64,000 nucleotides of DNA from positions 4,691,501 through 4,755,500 of the forward strand of contig NC_092668.1 of NCBI RefSeq assembly GCF_032118995.1. The letters are read 5' to 3'. This document shows, one piece after another, positions 15,464 to 28,000 of this stretch (position 1 is its first letter; each line of letters opens with the position of its first letter). A program made the position numbers and the translations under genes. This DNA comes from Asterias amurensis (Eukaryota > Echinodermata > Asteroidea > Forcipulatida > Asteriidae). Below the pieces are notes generated by a model that was not told the origin of the DNA, did not search any database, and saw only the letters and a list, made by a program, of their open reading frames with translations.

Positions 15464-17082
15464 CCCCCCCCCCCCTCACATCCCAAGTTTATTTAACAAA
15501 ATATATATAACATTTAAAATTAAATGAAACTTTTCAACTTTTGCCTTTTCCCCATCCATCCATTATATGCTGCCATATTTTACTTTCTTTTACAGTTTTA
15601 TTAATAAAATGGAGAGCAAAGGTGCTGGCAGGATATGGAAAGGTTAGTTTTTTCACTAAAACTTTGTCAACAAAACTTGAACTTACATGGAATGCTTGTC
15701 AATGTTAGCACAAAAACACGCAGTTCTTCAAAAGGTCCGCACAGCAGTTGAAACTTGCAACACGTCCCACCACACCACCACGAGCAAAACAAGCGAGGTC
15801 TAAAGAAAAACCAAGCACATGTGTTTTTGTAAACTGCATACAAACGTGCACACAAGTCTCGTCTCCCAACCACAACACAATCCTTTGCACTAAGTTTAGG
15901 GAACAGAACCAGACTGTAGCGGAATGGACATAACAATTTAACTGAGGGCGCACTGCAAAATGTTCTCGTCATCTTGCCCTCAAGAAAGTAACGAAAAAAG
16001 AAAAGTTGAAACATTTTCATGTCTGCCAAAATATTGTCATTCCAAACATACTGAATAAATCAATGTTGTGAATTGCAAAACTTTAAACAATCTGACCAGT
16101 GAAATTATAGACTAACGAAAGTGTATATATTATTTTTACATGAGCATTTTATTAATTTTTTGTTAGCCTATATAATAATATTATAATAACACTGTGAAAT
16201 TAAAGGCCCAATCGCCTTTGGATATCTTCATTGTCTCCTTTGGAAAACATATTATTATCCAAATCCAAATAAATACCTTCTGTGGCGATGAGTGCTGCCT
16301 TGGAGGAATAAAGAACCGGTTCAAAATTTCTATGTGATCAATGAATTACTTAATTTAAATTTTTAGAAATATAGTTCTGTTTATTATTAGTTTTATTATG
16401 TCTATTAATATAAATTTGACAAATTCAAACTACAAGAAAAGTATACGAATAGGATAAAACTCTTAAAAACATGTACAAAATATAGGCCACCTAGTTATAA
16501 TTAATAAAAACTATAAATTTTATTTTTGGCTTTTGAGTTTTTTTCCAAGGTAAGTTTGCTTTGTATATATTTAATCTTAATTTGATCAAAAAGGCAATGT
16601 CAATTAATTGTCAATCAGTGAAAGTGCACAGACAGTTCAGGGTCAAATAGAAGCTCCCTTTTACATCAAGGGGAAACAAAATAAGAAGGTACAGAAAAGA
16701 ACCCATGGCTAAAGTACACGTGTCCACTCAGAGAAAACTTACTCAGAATTGAACCATCGGGGCGTGACTTATCCTAAATATAAGTTGACCTTAAAATATA
16801 ACCTTTCGACTCAGAAGGCAAACAAAAGCTCTTTTATTATTCACTCTCACCGACCTCCAAAGGGTACACCAGTCACCGAAAGATAACAAAGGCGGGGTAT
16901 TGTTATGCTAAACATGCTCACCTGTGTGCGGTTTCGGGGAAGGTTTGTACACGTGTACATACCAGACAGGGGTGTTCCAAATCGGGTACAACTTTCACCC
17001 ACCGTCCCAAGCCCACAAGTGTTGCCTTTCCTGCAGTCGTTTTAACATCATCTCGTAGGGGAATAGTTACTTCTAGATCAAG
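15464..17082. other. Intergenic region upstream of POFUT1
   Basis: No gene recognised. AT-rich with a long open minus frame at 15667-16029 that lacks family features. The POFUT1 promoter should lie in the last few hundred bases; no TATA box or other core element could be called. Confidence 0.4.
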
Positions 17083-20000
17083 ATGGCGAGACTTTCCTTG
17101 GTGGTGTCTTTGGTTGTTGTCTTGATGATGAGGATGTCAGAAAGCAGGAATACTGGTGCATCTCTCGACTGGGATGCGTCTAAAGGATACGTCTTATATT
17201 GCCCATGCTCAGGTAAACATCAACAGAAACCGTCCATCTTTTACGTTCTTGAATTAACAAAAACCATGTTCTAGAAACACTACCTCCATGATTGAAACGT
17301 GCACTTTCGGTGGATGATTAATTAGTTGCAGTCATTAATTAATTATAAAGTGTTACACAACAGTTGATTAATGTAGAAAAGTCCATAAAATTAAACATTC
17401 TGACAGTGGGTGTGTGATCATAGGGAATGATTGTGATGTTTGCCAATCAACGTATAGGGCCTACATAAAAAAAATTGATGTTTTGTTTGATGGTAATGAA
17501 CGTAATGGTTAATTTATTTATCGGTCAAGTGGTTCAGCCATGATTACCGCTGATTTTTCCACCGAGTAGAATAAGTGTTGTCTCTTCTAAATTATTCAAA
17601 GGCAAAACAAAAAATGAGAGAGATTGGATATTGGCAGTAGCTTTGTTTCCTCTTGTTTCAGCTTTGCCGAGTTCACTTGTTTGGAAGATAACAGAAACAA
17701 GTCCCTTTTTTATGTTGACCTGTGTTTTAAATAAGTTTTGAAACAAAATTTTGATTGCGGAATGGCAATTATTACAACTTGCTGTATAAAGGCCAAGAAA
17801 TACATTATAGAGGATTACTGTAGTTTTGATTTTAAATTAATATTTTTGTCATAATGTATAGGTCGGTTTACAGGCCAGGTGGAACAGTTCCTGGGTGCCG
17901 TTCAATTTGCAAAAGCTGTGGGTCGAATTCTGGTCGCACCACCTTTTATCATGTACCCATGTGGTCGGAAAGACCGCCACGACCATTTTGGAGTTCAAGT
18001 GCCTATCCATATGGATAGAAATGTAAGGATTTATTTACTGTAATTTATGCAGGAGATTTGAATATTCATCAACGAGATATGAATATTCAACTCCCACTGC
18101 TGACGACACAGTTAGTCTGAAACACTGCAAACTCATTCAGGAACTGTTCCACCAGGTTTATAAACCATTATCAAAAGTTTGGATGAGCTGCCCATCGCGA
18201 ATCATTAGCTTATCAGGGCCCAATTTCATAGAGCTGCTAAGCACGAAAAAAAGTAGCTATACGCACAACAAAATCGTGCTTATACTGGAATAAGGTTAAC
18301 AGTCAAAGTACCATGTCACGTGTACAAATTCAGACTGGTATCCCGCTCATATTATTATCTGCTCAGCAGAAAAATGTTAAGCAATATTTTTTTTTGCTTA
18401 AGCAGCTCTGTATGAAATTCAAGCTCTGTTGTAATTTTTCTTCAAAGAGCCAAACTTGTCATTATCATCCTTTTATACAGGTCGATTTGGTAACCAGGTG
18501 GAACAGTTCATGGGAGCGTTGCTTTTTGCATCCAAGGTTGACAGAATCTTAGTCGCCCCTCCGTTTATTTCATACCCAAGCGCCCTTCAGGAAAAACCGA
18601 AAAATGTAAGATATGAAGCCACTTAGGCCGAGTAAAAAAAGAAACATGTTTAGCGTCCTGGTTTCTAAAAAAAAAAAATGAAGGAGGAGGTTTTTTTCCT
18701 CGTTTTTTTTTTTTCAAGATATAGCCGCCATTCTTAATGAATTTCAAACACCCATTGTTTTGTTTCTACTGTTCACAATACATAAAATGAACTATGTTGG
18801 ACGAGACATTGATAACATAAAAAATAACATAATACTTTTGAAAAAGGAAGATAAACGGCCTTTTTCTAAAATGGCTGCCCGACACATTTTTTAAGATAAA
18901 CGGCTGGGCTACTTTTAAACTATTTTTTTTTTGCTGGGATCATTAAAATGTATTCCTTTTTTTCCATTAAAAAAAAATCATAACAATAATAAATCATAAA
19001 AAAGGAAGCGGCCTCTTAAAAGGGGGCGGACGAAGGCACTTAACATGTTTCTTTTTTTTACTTGGCCTATGATAAAAAAAAAAATCATCGGATAAGTTTG
19101 GCAAAAATATATTTAGTTTTCACAATGAGTTAAATCATTACGATCCGGGTAGGCCATCTCCCCTATCTACATTATGTGGCCAAATCATAAGATAATAATA
19201 AGTGTGTCCACACACAAAAAACTGCTGAGTCCACACAATTAAGCATAATAATTGTAATAAAAAAGTTTAATATTAATGGACAAGCCAAGACAAGAGAAAA
19301 ACTGGAACGAAATCAAGATGTAAAAAAGAACAAGTAATTTGTGAAACGTTTGAGTGGATAGAATCGTTTGTTTTGGAAGGTCGAGACCGTGAACAATTCA
19401 GAACAAAACAAAACAGAACAAAACAAAACAACAATGAAGAAAGTCCATGGTCACTGAACTATTTATGTGTATAGCACAGCAAATTGCTGGACAAAGTGTA
19501 TCAGTTGCTATAATGTAATCTCAATTTGGCATTCCCCACAGTGTGCACAAAAACAGTTGATCCTAAATTGTTTGCTATGCAGGCCGAAATCGTTCACCGA
19601 TGGTAATATTTCTTGTTTATTATTTTTATGTCTAGGCCTATGTCGCATTCGACGAATATTTTGAGATGGAGGAAATCAAGAAATATTACCCCAACGTGAT
19701 CACCATGGAAACTTTCATGACAGAATTGGCGCCACTTTATTGGAAGGAAGGCAACAGATTCGCTTACTGCTCGAGCGGACTGGCAGATAACAATGACGGC
19801 AAATGCACAAGGGTAAGGAACGTAGATCATTCAGGAAAAAAAAGAACTTTTGAAAACTAGGAAAGTACTTTATAAAAACGCACTAAGCCAGCATATAAAT
19901 GAAAACAATAAGCATTAGGTGTCCGACGAAAATGAAATAATTTATATTTGAAGCAATTTCTTTAAAAAAAATAGTGTGCAAAAATCAAGGCTTTGTTTAT

Positions 20001-22628
20001 AATACTGTATGAAACATTAAAAAAGGTATTTGTGCCACCACTCTTGTATCTTTGACATAAAGGCAGGATAAATTTTATTAAATTGTGAACATTTGTGAAA
20101 ACTCTTTTGTTGGACCATGTGTGCTTTCAGATAGGAATAAAGACTTCTAGCTAGCAGTCTTTTATTATTTTAGTGAGAAGGTACCTCTTTCTCAAAACCT
20201 ACGTTACTCTAGAGGGAGTCGTTTCCCACAATATTTTATACTATCAATAGCTCTCCAATGCTCGTTACCAAGTCAGTTTTTAAGTTAATATATTTTGTTA
20301 TGAGTAATTACCCAAACGTGTAAAATCAAGTTATAGTTTATATTTTATTAGTAATTTTATTTCTTTTGACAGGACGGAAACCCATTCCGTACATTCTGGG
20401 AGGACCAGGGTATCATCTTTGACGAGAGCACAGTTTGGAGAACAGAATCCACAAGCTTACATTACAACATAGATTCGACAGACACTGCTAACGAATGGAA
20501 AAAAGAGTAAGGCACCCGTACTTATACTTTTTCCCGCAGCAAACTGAGAAAAATAATTGTAGTGTGCAGTATTGCTTCAAAATGTACCCAAAAGTGCTGA
20601 GTAACATAAGAAAGACAGACAAGTTACGAGCAGAAAAGTGGTCAAGAGTTACAAAACTACGCGAAGGAGTTTGTCTAATCAGTAATTAAGTTTTACAAAA
20701 CAATATTCTGCCCCCGATTTCACGAAACCCATCGCAAGTAGCGACGCATCGTAGGGTTTGCGATGCGTCGCAGACCTATTAGACACGTCGCGGCTGCGAC
20801 GAGTTCGCAACTTACGACGTGTAACCGGTCACAACTTGCACTTGCGACGCGTCGCAGCGCTTCGTGAAATCGGGGGCAGGAAAACTATCATTTAGAAAGA
20901 GCTTTATAAAACACAGATTGATCTTTAAATGACAGTAAAATACGTCCAATGTCGCACACATGTTGCACTGGGAAACAACTTTGAAAACTCTCAGTGCCAT
21001 AATAATTGATGTCAATTTTCTGCGATGCCTTAACAGCTTTTTTGAGTGAATATTATTTTGGGTAATTTTGTTTCCGTGTTGCTCTAGATTCCCTGCCTCT
21101 GAGCACCCAGTCCTCGTTCTGATGACAGCACCTACCTACACCCCAATCAGTCCCAAGACCGAGGGGCTTCAACATTATCTCAAGTTCACGAGCATCATCA
21201 GTGAGCCGGCAGATCTCTTCATTGAGAAAAGCCTCCAAAGACCTTACTGGGGTCTGCATCTTAGAAATGGTGCTGATTGGGTAAGGAAGTTTTGTTTGTT
21301 TCTTGTATTTTTTTTTGCCAGAAAAAACTCCACAATAATGGACAATAACAGACACAAAAATACAATGACTATGTAAACTACATAGGAACCCGAGGAGTTG
21401 ATATTTACTAATTAAATTTACCCATTATGAGTAAGTACATCGAAAGATGTTTCCAAGTCGAGAAGAAGCATGCCAAATACCTCTGTCCAACCAACTCGGT
21501 TCTTACATGATCACTAAGAAAAGCTATTGCCACGATTCAGTCTACGGGGTTTGTCTTAATGGATTATCTATTTTCTTCCAAAATCAGAGCCGTACTTGTG
21601 AGCTTGCCAAGGACTACCCTCATCTCCTCAGCTCACGCCAGTGCACCAGAGAGGAGGATGATTCCGTAACCAAGGAGATGTGCATCCATTCCGAGGAGGA
21701 GGTCATCTCAGACATCAGATCTCAGATCTATCTTGCTGAGGAGACAGACAGAGAATTGCCCAAGACCATCTTTGTGGCTACTGATCACGTGGCCATGGAG
21801 GAAGAACTACAGGCAGCATTCCCGGATGTAAGATAGTTTTTACAAACTTCGTTTTCAACGGCATTGTGTTGTTTTAAATTTATCAAAGACTATGAAATGT
21901 TTCAAGTAAAGTATTTCACTAGTTTGGGGCAATTATTACACTCTATAAACTTGTTCTGGATGGGCTTGATTGCAAGTCCGGCCTGTGGGTGTGCTGCTCC
22001 AAACGGCTGGCAACACATCCCATCACTGTGACTGCGTTAACAGTTGCCCTGGCAAACAGGGCCCAATTATTTCACACAGCTGCTTGTTATCAGAAAACAC
22101 TGCTTCTAAATTTCATGCTTAGCAGAAATTAGCAGGACACCAGTAACAAATGGTACATGTGACATAGCAGTTTCACTGGCAACCTTATTCTGGTAAGCAA
22201 CATTTTGTTTTGCTTAGCAATAATTTGTGTGCTTAAGCAGCTCTACGAAATTGGTCCATGTGAAGAAGCAAGGCAGTCTGGCTACCACACAATGGCTAAT
22301 ATTAAAACCATACCAGAGTTTAATCTGAGACAAACGCATAATACCACCCTTTTTATGATACAACATCCAGTTGAAATAATTTATATCTTGTTTTATTTTG
22401 TTGCCACCTTAGATCAAGATCGTCGCGTGGGGTCCGGATCTCGACCAGATGGATCTATACATCCTCAACCAAGCAGACCACGTGATCCTCAACTGCGTAT
22501 CAGCGTTCAGCGCCTACGTCAAACGCGATCGTGACGTCAACGAGAAATCCGTCGCATTTTTCGGCTACATGGAAACGCATAAAAAACTGCCTGTAGTCAA
22601 GAGATCTCCGTTCCACGAAGAATTGTGA
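17083..22628 (+). CDS. POFUT1: GDP-fucose protein O-fucosyltransferase 1
   Basis: Soluble ER enzyme that transfers fucose from GDP-fucose to Ser/Thr of EGF repeats, including Notch. Exons: 17083-17212; then either 17862-18022 (2a) or 18481-18605 (2b); 19636-19812; 20373-20506; 21088-21280; 21588-21827; 22413-22628. All are GT-AG and in phase. Protein is 404 residues with 2b or 416 with 2a (human about 388). Exon 1 gives a hydrophobic signal peptide then DWDASKGYVLYCPCSG. Exon 2b carries the GRFGNQ nucleotide-sugar loop. Exon 5 ends in WGLHLRNGADW, the HLR motif of the family; exon 7 has DLYILNQADHVILNCVSAF. The C-terminus is HEEL, a KDEL-like retrieval signal where human ends RDEF. Poly(A) signal at 22681. 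The start is the only ATG giving a signal peptide. Confidence 0.96.
17862..18022 (+). CDS. POFUT1: POFUT1 alternative exon 2a
   Basis: Acceptor TATAG, donor AAT/GTAAGG. Enters in phase 1 and leaves in phase 0, exactly like exon 2b. Encodes 53 codons starting GRFTGQVEQFLGAV. Over the first 33 residues it matches 2b at 24 positions. It differs at the nucleotide-binding loop (GRFTGQ in place of GRFGNQ) and has a longer tail, with GRKDRHDHFGVQVPIHMDRN. Open frame, good splice sites and many silent differences from 2b argue that it is a selected exon and not debris. Confidence 0.8.
18216..18426. mobile_element. Hairpin element family D between exons 2a and 2b
   Basis: Left end GGGCCCAATTTCATAGAGCT; right end GCTTAAGCAGCTCTGTATGA, slightly decayed. 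It separates the two alternative POFUT1 exons. Confidence 0.65.
18481..18605 (+). CDS. POFUT1: POFUT1 exon 2b, canonical form
   Basis: Acceptor TTTTATACAG, donor AAT/GTAAGA. Encodes GRFGNQVEQFMGALLFASKV and RILVAPPFISYP, the form expected from human and fly POFUT1. If 2a and 2b were both included the frame would hit a stop at 18550-18552; if both were skipped exon 3 would be misread and stop after about ten codons. Only one-of-two inclusion keeps the protein open. Confidence 0.92.
20709..20877. mobile_element. Hairpin element family F
   Basis: Near-perfect palindrome in POFUT1 intron 4. Ends TGCCCCCGATTTCACGAA and TTCGTGAAATCGGGGGCA; interior GCGACGCATCG / CGATGCGTCGC words. Same architecture as families D and E but a different filling word. 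Confidence 0.75.
22059..22257. mobile_element. Hairpin element family D
   Basis: Left GGGCCCAATTATTTCAC, right GCAGCTCTACGAAATTGG, with GCTTAGCA words inside. In POFUT1 intron 6. Confidence 0.6.
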
Positions 22629-25027: not shown

Positions 25028-28000
25028 ATGGCGGACACAACGATCGACGAGAGCAACGTGGTTGCCGATCTAAACCAGACGTTAAACGAAACTGTAGCTA
25101 ATGCTACCGCTAAAATTCCGGCCACCCCGGAGGGAATGGCTGTCGCCTACGGGGGGCTGGTGATTATGGCTCTTTTGCCCATCTTCTTTGGTGCTTTTAG
25201 ATCGGTTAAATATCAGAAAGAACAGAAGGTGAGTGCAACAGCTGTTTCAGTGGATGCACAATGTGAATGTTTTGTTTGGTAATTCATTTGTTGACGAGTT
25301 CCGTTAATAGCTTTCAGACAATAATGACAGTGGGCCATTTTATAATGGCACACAAGGAAGGAATACAAAATGACGGTGGAGGAGGAACTATAGTTACCCA
25401 AAATAAGAATCATGAGCAATTTCGTCATTGTTTTCGTTAAAATTAAATTTAAAAAGAATGGGAATGTATGTTATAATTTATGTTTTCATTGTCAATAAAG
25501 AAATCAATGTCAACAAAAGACTGAAATGTCAGATGTAATGGATGTTGTAACATTCATTTATTAATTTATTATTCAAATGATTGAATGTTGAAGCGCCTAA
25601 CAATACAAATGCAGCTTGCTTTTGTTTGTAGTTGCGATAACGTAACCCTCCCAACTTTTTACTTTTATTTAAACCTCCACAGCAGAATGGGGAAGTCCTG
25701 TAAATCATGTCGGAAAAAGACGCTGCCATGTTCCCACTTATCGCAAGTGCAACATTATTTGGAATCTAAGTTGTTTTCCAGGCATCAGTGAACTATAGAT
25801 TTGTTTGCAGTTTTTTTCTTCGAATATTTGTATTAACTTTTGACTTTTTTAACCTCTACAGGAGAATGGAGAAGTCCCGGAAATCATGTCGGAAAAAGAC
25901 GCAGCAATGTTCCCACTTATCGCAAGTGCAACATTATTTGGAATATACGTAGTTTTCCAGGCAAGTATGACAGAGTTTGGTGAGGATCAGGAAGACGTAA
26001 GTTTTCATGTGGATGAAGGAAAGTGGAGAAGAACAAGTCATGTAAAGGTGTTTTGGTTTTTAAAATGGCCAAATAAAATGTCTAGTATTGTATAAGATTT
26101 CCTGACGTGTGACTAGGCCTGGTTGACTAGTGTTAAAAAGTCACAACTATTGGTTGCTATGCAACTGCCGCGTTTCAAATACCTGGTTAACCGTGCCACC
26201 TTGATTACTACTAACAACTAATTAAAGCTCCACTAGTCCGGAAGTGACTTACACTAGTTGCTAAAGCCAAGTTGTCTTTGTCTGCTCTTATTTGCATCAC
26301 AATGGCCTCCAATGCAATGCAGCGACCCTCAATCTTTAATTTGAAAGTAGTCACAACTAGTGTTGAAGTCACAATTAGGCCTGGGCGAATTATTCGAATA
26401 TCCGGTTAATGGCGAATAGGTTTTCCTATCCGTAACCGCGAATGCCTTTTTTTTCTTAACCGGATATCCGCATAGGGCGCGAATACCTATTTACAAACCG
26501 GATAATTCTGTAATTACAACCGAGTAACCGGATATTCTTTAACTATCCGAATATCCGCGGACGTCAGGCGACAACTGATATGAATGTTTTGTCAGAATCC
26601 TTATGAAACTTCTATTAAGACAGCATAAAACATTATAAATTAAGTATTTAACTATGCTCACCTCCGTGAAGAGTTAAAACAATGACATTTCTGACGTAAC
26701 TTGTTCAAAGATTACAAAAGTTTTACTTCACGTAGAGTCAATCACGATCAAAAGAAAAAGCAAATCGCCATCTTTAAATTAGATCTGGTCATTTTTATGA
26801 ATGAACTGAGTGACACTGTCTTAAACTAATATCAATCCGCCCATAAGATCTCATTCACAAACGAACAGCGCCCTCTAGTGGCAAAAAAAAATAATAATTA
26901 AAAAAAATATTAATTTTTTTTTTTAAATAGCGCCCTCTAGCGGCGAAAAAACTATTCGAATTTCCGGTTAATTTCGGATAGTTGGCCAGCGGTATCCGAA
27001 TAACAAAATTTCACTATTCGCCCAGCACTAGTCACAACTAGTCGATAGTGAACATCACTAGACGCCCAGGCCTACTCTTGACTGTTCTTATTATAATGCC
27101 TTCATATCATTAATTTGTTTATGCCAATCTCTTTTCTTGTACAGATTTTCTCAAAGGATTACATCAATTTGTTGTTGACTGTTTATTTCTTCTTCTTGGG
27201 AGTCTTAGCCCTTGCTCATATATTTAGGTAAAGTACTTTACATCAGTAAATCCAAGAACCATTGTCATGGCTCTGCTTACTGCAGAATTCTGCTCTTACA
27301 AAATGATTCACTGCTTACTGTGCAAGCGCTGAATTTTTTAAACCTGTGAAATACGCTTGATGTAAAGCATACAATTCCCTGCTTCCATAAGCGCTGATTC
27401 TTTGCATGCGGTAAGCAGAGGCTTGAATTTGGTTACCACCAACAGATTATTACTTGGGGAGGCAGTGTTCTTCCTCCACAGTGGTCCCATAATTGGTCCA
27501 CTGACCAAATTGATTAAAACACCCTCGGAGTAGTGAAAGTCCACTGCTAAGTGGTCCAGAGATCGATTTCACAAAGAGTTAGGACTAGTCTAGGAGATAT
27601 AACAAATGTATGGATAGTCCTAAGTTAGGCAAGTAACTAGAGACAAGACTAGTCTTAACTCTTCGTGAAATCCACCCCAGTTGCCTAATTCATAAATTGT
27701 TTCTCAAAGGCAATTCAAGTCCCAAATGGTTACAGTGTTGGAAGAGGGTCCTTCTTTTTTACATGGGACCAGTGCAAAAGCTGGCAGACAAAAAAATTGA
27801 ACAAGCTTGTTATGTCCCACTGGCTTGTAAAAACGTTGAGGGCAAACCCTAGACTGAAGCGTTATTTAGGAATGAACAATTCTGTCTTGGAAGTTCAATT
27901 TATTTATGAAGTTACGATATGTTTATGAGTTAAAATATGTTTGTATGAACATTCTTGACAGCCCTGTGATGCGGAAGCTTCTACCGGCAGCATTCCCAAA

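Follow-up and report, generated by a model that had tools for sequence, protein, structure and literature searches.

A 64,000-nucleotide stretch of the genome of the starfish Asterias amurensis (contig NC_092668.1, positions 4,691,501 to 4,755,500; hereafter the window) carries on its plus strand a gene for the O-fucosyltransferase POFUT1 (window positions 17083-22628). Seven coding positions were identified in this gene, the second of which is present in two versions, termed exons 2a and 2b. The boundaries, phases and stop codons were recomputed by script from the window DNA and gave the following features.

17083..17212, +, POFUT1 exon 1: starts with ATG, encodes a signal peptide and ends with YCPCS plus the first base of a G codon, phase 1
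17862..18022, +, exon 2a: 161 nt, 54 aa, motif GRFTGQ (catalytic Asn lost), hairpin with longer end YPCGRKDRHDHFGVQVPIHMDRN
18481..18605, +, exon 2b: 125 nt, 42 aa, motif GRFGNQ, canonical length
19636..19812, +, POFUT1 exon 3: phase 0
20373..20506, +, POFUT1 exon 4
21088..21280, +, POFUT1 exon 5: HLRNGADW, including the catalytic Arg
21588..21827, +, POFUT1 exon 6
22413..22628, +, POFUT1 exon 7: terminal HEEL, resembling an endoplasmic reticulum (ER) retention signal, followed by TGA

The gene was assigned to POFUT1 (family GT65) on the basis of PF10250, which spans the mature protein, and of POFUT1 as the closest structural match. Exons 2a and 2b are preceded by the acceptors tatag/GTC and tacag/GTC and followed by the donors AAT/gtaagg and AAT/gtaaga, respectively (slashes mark the exon boundaries). 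Translation through exon 2b yields an isoform of 404 aa and translation through exon 2a one of 416 aa, both of which remain open to the HEEL C-terminus. When both exons are included, the frame ends at a TAG at positions 18550-18552; when both are skipped, it ends after 52 codons, nine codons beyond exon 1. The locus thus shows tandem homologous exons of equal phase whose joint inclusion or omission is unproductive, as is characteristic of mutually exclusive exons, and represents one POFUT1 gene with two homologous alternative exons 2 between which phase forces a choice. A preliminary description, made from the letters of the window, had placed both exon-2 blocks at these coordinates and phases with sound splice sites, had named the same stop for double inclusion and a stop within about ten codons for double skipping, and had concluded that phase alone imposes the use of one of the two; all of this was reproduced on recheck. 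As an additional feature, exon 2a contains, close to its 3' end, a perfect 16-nt palindrome (CTATCCATATGGATAG) at positions 18003-18018.

Divergence of exons 2a and 2b and their occurrence in echinoderms

Over the 33 codons that can be aligned, 24 residues are identical and 20 codons differ, 11 of them silently, so that a recount returned the identity and the mostly silent codon differences reported previously. At the DNA level, 33 of 99 nucleotides differ (9, 7 and 17 at codon positions 1, 2 and 3), and the match between the exons has an E-value of 1.8e-4 within the window. Beyond residue 33 the two exons diverge, with 2a being 12 residues longer; the Asn of GRFGNQ is gone from it. Substitution rates over the aligned codons were estimated at dN 0.26 and dS 1.67 (NG86) or 0.25 and 2.12 (maximum likelihood). 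In simple drift simulations with 2b as the ancestor and every change on 2a, 33 nucleotide changes led to nine or fewer amino-acid changes in 0 of 5000 runs and to an in-frame stop in 3231 of 5000. When a third of the changes was instead assigned to 2b and made silent, so few amino-acid changes were obtained in 0 of 1500 runs, and when half of them was, in 5 of 1500. The divergence of 2a and 2b fits purifying selection, and selection on both exons is indicated by dN/dS and the simulations as well as by the presence of the 2a type in two sea urchins and the 2b type in three (see below). A search of the whole genome with exon 2a (491.5 Mb, 23 contigs) gave a single match, the copy in the window. 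Chance homology, an assembly artefact or an allelic copy were considered as sources of exon 2a and are unlikely, because there is only one genomic match and Asterias rubens has the same exon.

Relatives were sought in a eukaryotic protein database with representatives clustered at 90% identity, and the sea urchin comparison was performed on proteins. The 2a isoform of the window differs from the A. rubens model (P0001) at 6 of 416 residues; the NCBI isoform X1 of that species contains 2a alone of the two exons 2, with 54 of 54 residues identical. Isoforms X1 of the sea urchins Diadema setosum and Lytechinus variegatus are likewise of the 2a type. Where 2b has GRFGNQ, they read GQFSGQ or GQFAGQ, followed by YPCGRK and then the additional stretch, through which the exon exceeds 2b by 13 residues. 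Eight residues (the Gly that replaces Asn, the four of CGRK, and G, Q and V in the insert) are common to the starfish and both urchin 2a exons and occur in none of the five 2b exons compared. Starfish and L. variegatus share 29 of 54 residues in exon 2a and 135 of 303 in exons 3-7. The 2b type was found in Strongylocentrotus purpuratus X2, Pseudocentrotus and Lytechinus pictus (a partial model). From YFDLN to GADW (exons 3-5), the latter (2b) is identical to L. variegatus (2a) at 155 of 158 residues, compared with 25 of 42 in exon 2, as a single gene with alternative second exons would show. The preliminary description, which had confined the second exon to "this lineage", was therefore too narrow in scope.

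Among 129 POFUT1 sequences (26 plus 120 of 236 among the matches listed, the two sets overlapping), 123 have the catalytic Asn, five lack it and one lacks the region. A search with the exon 2a region alone yielded four candidates and recovered only P0001 itself; as it missed both urchin proteins, it was too insensitive to provide evidence of absence. A scan of viral contigs produced 98 pattern matches and no relative. In the sea urchin 2a sequences (P0004, P0007), the Arg of GRF is also replaced, by Gln; it is the equivalent of Arg40 in C. elegans POFUT1, whose exchange for Ala weakens GDP binding about ninefold (3.10 vs 0.35 μM). Isoforms X2 of crinoid POFUT1 (P0006 from Anneissia, P0008 from Antedon) read GRFGSQ, with Ser for the catalytic Asn and without the insert, which, judged from the proteins, may point to a further alternative exon or to an altered enzyme.

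Predicted function of the 2a isoform and age of the exon pair

The 2b isoform contains the catalytic Asn of the GRFxNQ motif (GRFGNQ). The 2a isoforms of starfish (GRFTGQ) and urchins (GQFSGQ/GQFAGQ) do not, and exon 2a thus replaces two functional parts of the protein: the catalytic Asn and the hairpin contacting the EGF acceptor, which is 12-13 residues longer. In C. elegans POFUT1, exchange of the same Asn for Ala or Asp rendered the enzyme completely inactive (PMC8631701), and published Asn mutants of POFUT1 were folded yet inactive. Because 2a lacks the Asn whose mutants were inactive in C. elegans, the 2a form is probably a non-catalytic isoform rather than a second working fucosyltransferase. 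Of the earlier proposal that the gene makes two O-fucosyltransferases, the two alternative exons 2 were retained; the second working enzyme was given up in view of the Asn change and replaced by two isoforms, one of them probably non-catalytic.

We consider it reasonably probable that the locus is a single POFUT1 gene whose two mutually exclusive exons, ancient and kept by selection, serve as a functional cassette, with 2b giving the normal enzyme and 2a a non-transferring form. The exons, their phases, the 2a type in sea urchin models and the two-part change were observed directly. Use of 2a would, in one step, exchange the catalytic Asn for Gly and install a longer EGF hairpin (with the conserved YPCGRK and histidines), and the early stops that result from using both exons or none would probably expose such transcripts to nonsense-mediated decay (NMD). 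The loss of activity is argued from mutants of other species; by this analogy, the 2a product is most likely a folded, ER-resident POFUT1 that retains the ability to bind GDP(-fucose), and perhaps EGF repeats, without transferring fucose. As to its biological role, we infer that it may act as a chaperone-only POFUT1 or as a decoy that lowers Notch fucosylation. Against this reading, inactive Pofut1 is degraded in mice, with a null phenotype (PMC5667770), so that the stability of a chaperone-only form is not assured, and the evidence for expression of 2a consists of NCBI models.

The latter point would also be consistent with 2a being a rarely used or non-functional duplicate exon that was retained by chance, and exon copies do decay in the vicinity, as seen at positions 25680-25784 (96 of 105 nt identical, two in-frame stops). 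Against this stand the open frame and splice competence of 2a at an identity to 2b of only 66 of 99 nt, its low dN/dS and the same 2a type in sea urchins, and we regard chance retention as highly improbable. Less remote, although still unlikely, is an active 2a enzyme with a different chemistry or acceptor range, in which the longer His/Cys hairpin would recruit another protein domain and supply a different proton acceptor to stand in for the Asn. This is difficult to reconcile with the absence of activity after exchange of Asn for Asp in C. elegans POFUT1 (PMC8631701), with the presence of Gln for the Arg of GRF in sea urchin 2a, and with the variation of the residue preceding the lost Asn among the three 2a types (T, S and A), which leaves no conserved substitute at that site.

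The same 2a type with YPCGRK in two urchin models suggests that 2a probably predates the split of starfish and sea urchins. Several observations run counter to such an age. In the first 33 columns, Asterias 2a has more residues in common with Asterias 2b (24/33) than with urchin 2a (21/33 and 20/33), and V20, I23 and A26 are found in both Asterias exons and are absent from the 2b exons of the other two starfish and from urchin 2a, as if 2a and 2b had exchanged sequence by gene conversion or as if 2a were a younger starfish copy. In an exon 2 tree (17 rows, 42 columns without the insert, long branches flagged; giving weak support only), the three 2a rows form a clade with support of just 85/90, and an independent starfish origin of 2a was not rejected (p-AU 0.167; 42 columns). 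Exon 2a was, moreover, unseen in the representatives of Acanthaster, Patiria, Apostichopus, Anneissia, Antedon, Saccoglossus and P0011, whose 90% clusters can hide isoforms. Together with the reliance of the urchin comparison on proteins, the p-AU value and the proximity of the Asterias exons would suit a history in which urchin 2a and 2b belong to different, paralogous genes or the exon pair of the starfish arose later through a duplication of its own. We judge this history very unlikely: the 2a protein of L. variegatus nearly matches the 2b protein of L. pictus over exons 3-5, the database models are labelled as isoforms X1 and X2, and eight residues, among them CGRK and a portion of the insert, are found in starfish and urchin 2a and in no 2b compared. 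For a younger starfish copy, the insert and CGRK would have had to be gained again, which makes it the less likely history. The alignments are best explained by an old origin of the pair followed by some gene conversion between the starfish exons, which would account for both patterns.

An intronic element complementary to both exons

The 458-nt intron between exons 2a and 2b contains a 33-nt element whose sequence is complementary to the first part of 2a and, to a lesser extent, of 2b.

18134..18166, +, intronic element: complementary to the 2a start and less well to the 2b start (pairing with 2b uses about 18130-18172)
17865..17897, +, exon 2a pairing stretch: from the 4th base, 31 pairs and 2 mismatches with the element
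18484..18520, +, exon 2b pairing stretch: from the 4th base, 32 pairs with bulges, same element

The calculated pairing energy was -49.7 kcal/mol for the element with 2a and -37.7 kcal/mol for the element and its neighbours with 2b. Ungapped pairing scores were 66 (2a) and 49 (2b), as compared with maxima of 48 and 45 in dinucleotide-shuffled introns, so that the complementarity to both exons exceeds chance (0 of 1500 shuffles reached either score). As controls, the six other exons scored 22 to 28 against the element intron, and 2a and 2b scored 22 to 32 against the six other introns. When three stretches of 439 to 1001 nt were folded, the element was paired with 2a at a mean probability of 0.90 to 0.93 and with 2b at 0.0; with the 2a start masked, it shifted to 2b (0.58). 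A search of Rfam with positions 17000-19900 gave no match.

The element could enforce the one-of-two choice; it might just as well be a simple inverted copy of the beginning of 2a. If it does have a role in splicing, it would pair with the start of either 2a or 2b, never both, and thereby provide a possible second enforcement besides the reading frame. By default, the element would lie on 2a, where pairing is stronger and which is transcribed first, so that 2a would be masked and 2b used; a factor that frees 2a would shift the element to 2b and lead to the use of 2a. This would be a simple model, given that transcription reaches 2a and the element ahead of 2b. Taken as a whole, the proposal that echinoderm POFUT1 has been a splice-switched pair of enzyme and pseudoenzyme since before the starfish-urchin split, chosen by a single intronic element that seals either exon, is a tentative one that we consider more doubtful than the exon cassette itself. 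If true, Notch fucosylation would be tuned via the splicing of the enzyme rather than via its expression.

Two findings speak against the part proposed for the element: it was seen in one genome only, and its balance is far from even, as pairing with 2b has a probability of 0.0 unless 2a is masked. The alternative, an inverted copy of the 2a start without a splicing role, with exclusivity arising from the frame and NMD or from trans-acting factors, has in our estimate not quite an even chance of being correct. Short inverted copies can originate close by, and the match of the element to 2a (29 nt at 86%) is better than that to 2b (21 nt at 90%), in keeping with a copy of 2a; the folding imbalance points in the same direction. 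Furthermore, the docking sites described so far are located upstream or downstream of the exon cluster (PMC6071210), so that an element between the exons would constitute another layout. Against a copy without a role, four of the six differences over the 33 nt still pair as G-U. A further point against it is the identity of the core codons CAG GTG GAA CAG TTC in both exons, which has a chance probability of 0.03 (13 of 24 same-residue codons are identical), although this five-codon run was chosen after being seen and could also be produced by gene conversion.

Relation to known systems and neighbouring sequences

The gene resembles known POFUT1/OFUT1 enzymes (GT65, PF10250) in its fold, in the domain match of the A. 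rubens 2a form (9e-43), in HLRNGADW and HEEL and, with 2b, in GRFGNQ; it differs from them in having a second exon 2 that lacks the catalytic Asn and carries a longer acceptor hairpin. In the GalNAc transferase pgant9A/B of Drosophila, an alternative exon 8 similarly alters a glycosyltransferase loop near the active site, but both forms are active and it is the lectin domain that is altered, whereas here the catalytic residue itself is swapped (PMC6115407). Alternative exons that change glycosyltransferases are therefore known; the joint swap of a catalytic residue and an acceptor hairpin seems to be new. Dscam, 14-3-3zeta and srp, with their docking site and selectors, share with the present locus the tandem homologous exons and the use of one element for two sites; here, however, the two exons flank the candidate element, and the pairing falls inside them, from the 4th base (PMC6071210).

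With respect to function, the closest parallel is Drosophila Ofut1 R245A, a non-catalytic protein that keeps its Notch chaperone function, as 2a may do by nature, yet an engineered mutant and not a natural isoform (PMC2242781). The equivalent mouse protein is unstable (PMC5667770). Engineered mutations have been used to pull apart the two jobs of POFUT1, Notch fucosylation and assistance in Notch folding, and the outcomes in fly and mouse conflict. If the cassette reading is true, an Asn-less isoform kept since before the starfish-urchin split would make this separation testable in the animals that evolved it, and it would show that swapping an exon that encodes part of the active site can regulate an essential Notch enzyme.

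The literature among the matches listed contained no description of an alternative exon 2 of POFUT1; Loriol et al. (2006, Glycobiology), on POFUT splice variants, may describe POFUT1 forms. In an echinoderm genome paper, POFUT1 is entered as present only (PMC9367165). The earlier remark that no description was known thus holds for this literature and not for the databases, as A. rubens X1 in NCBI already carries 2a; as far as searched, the exon is annotated in NCBI models yet undescribed.

Downstream of POFUT1, the window contains a signal peptide peptidase gene, which we take to be HM13 (PF04258 in two of three pieces tried). The decayed exon copy at 25680-25784 mentioned above belongs to this gene, where it forms a tandem with the exon at 25859-25963 and, in contrast to 2a, is not open. 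Finally, the intron after exon 2b harbours an inverted repeat of about 40 nt (18624-18662 and 19030-19069) that bounds a segment of about 446 bp and resembles the ends of a small transposable element.
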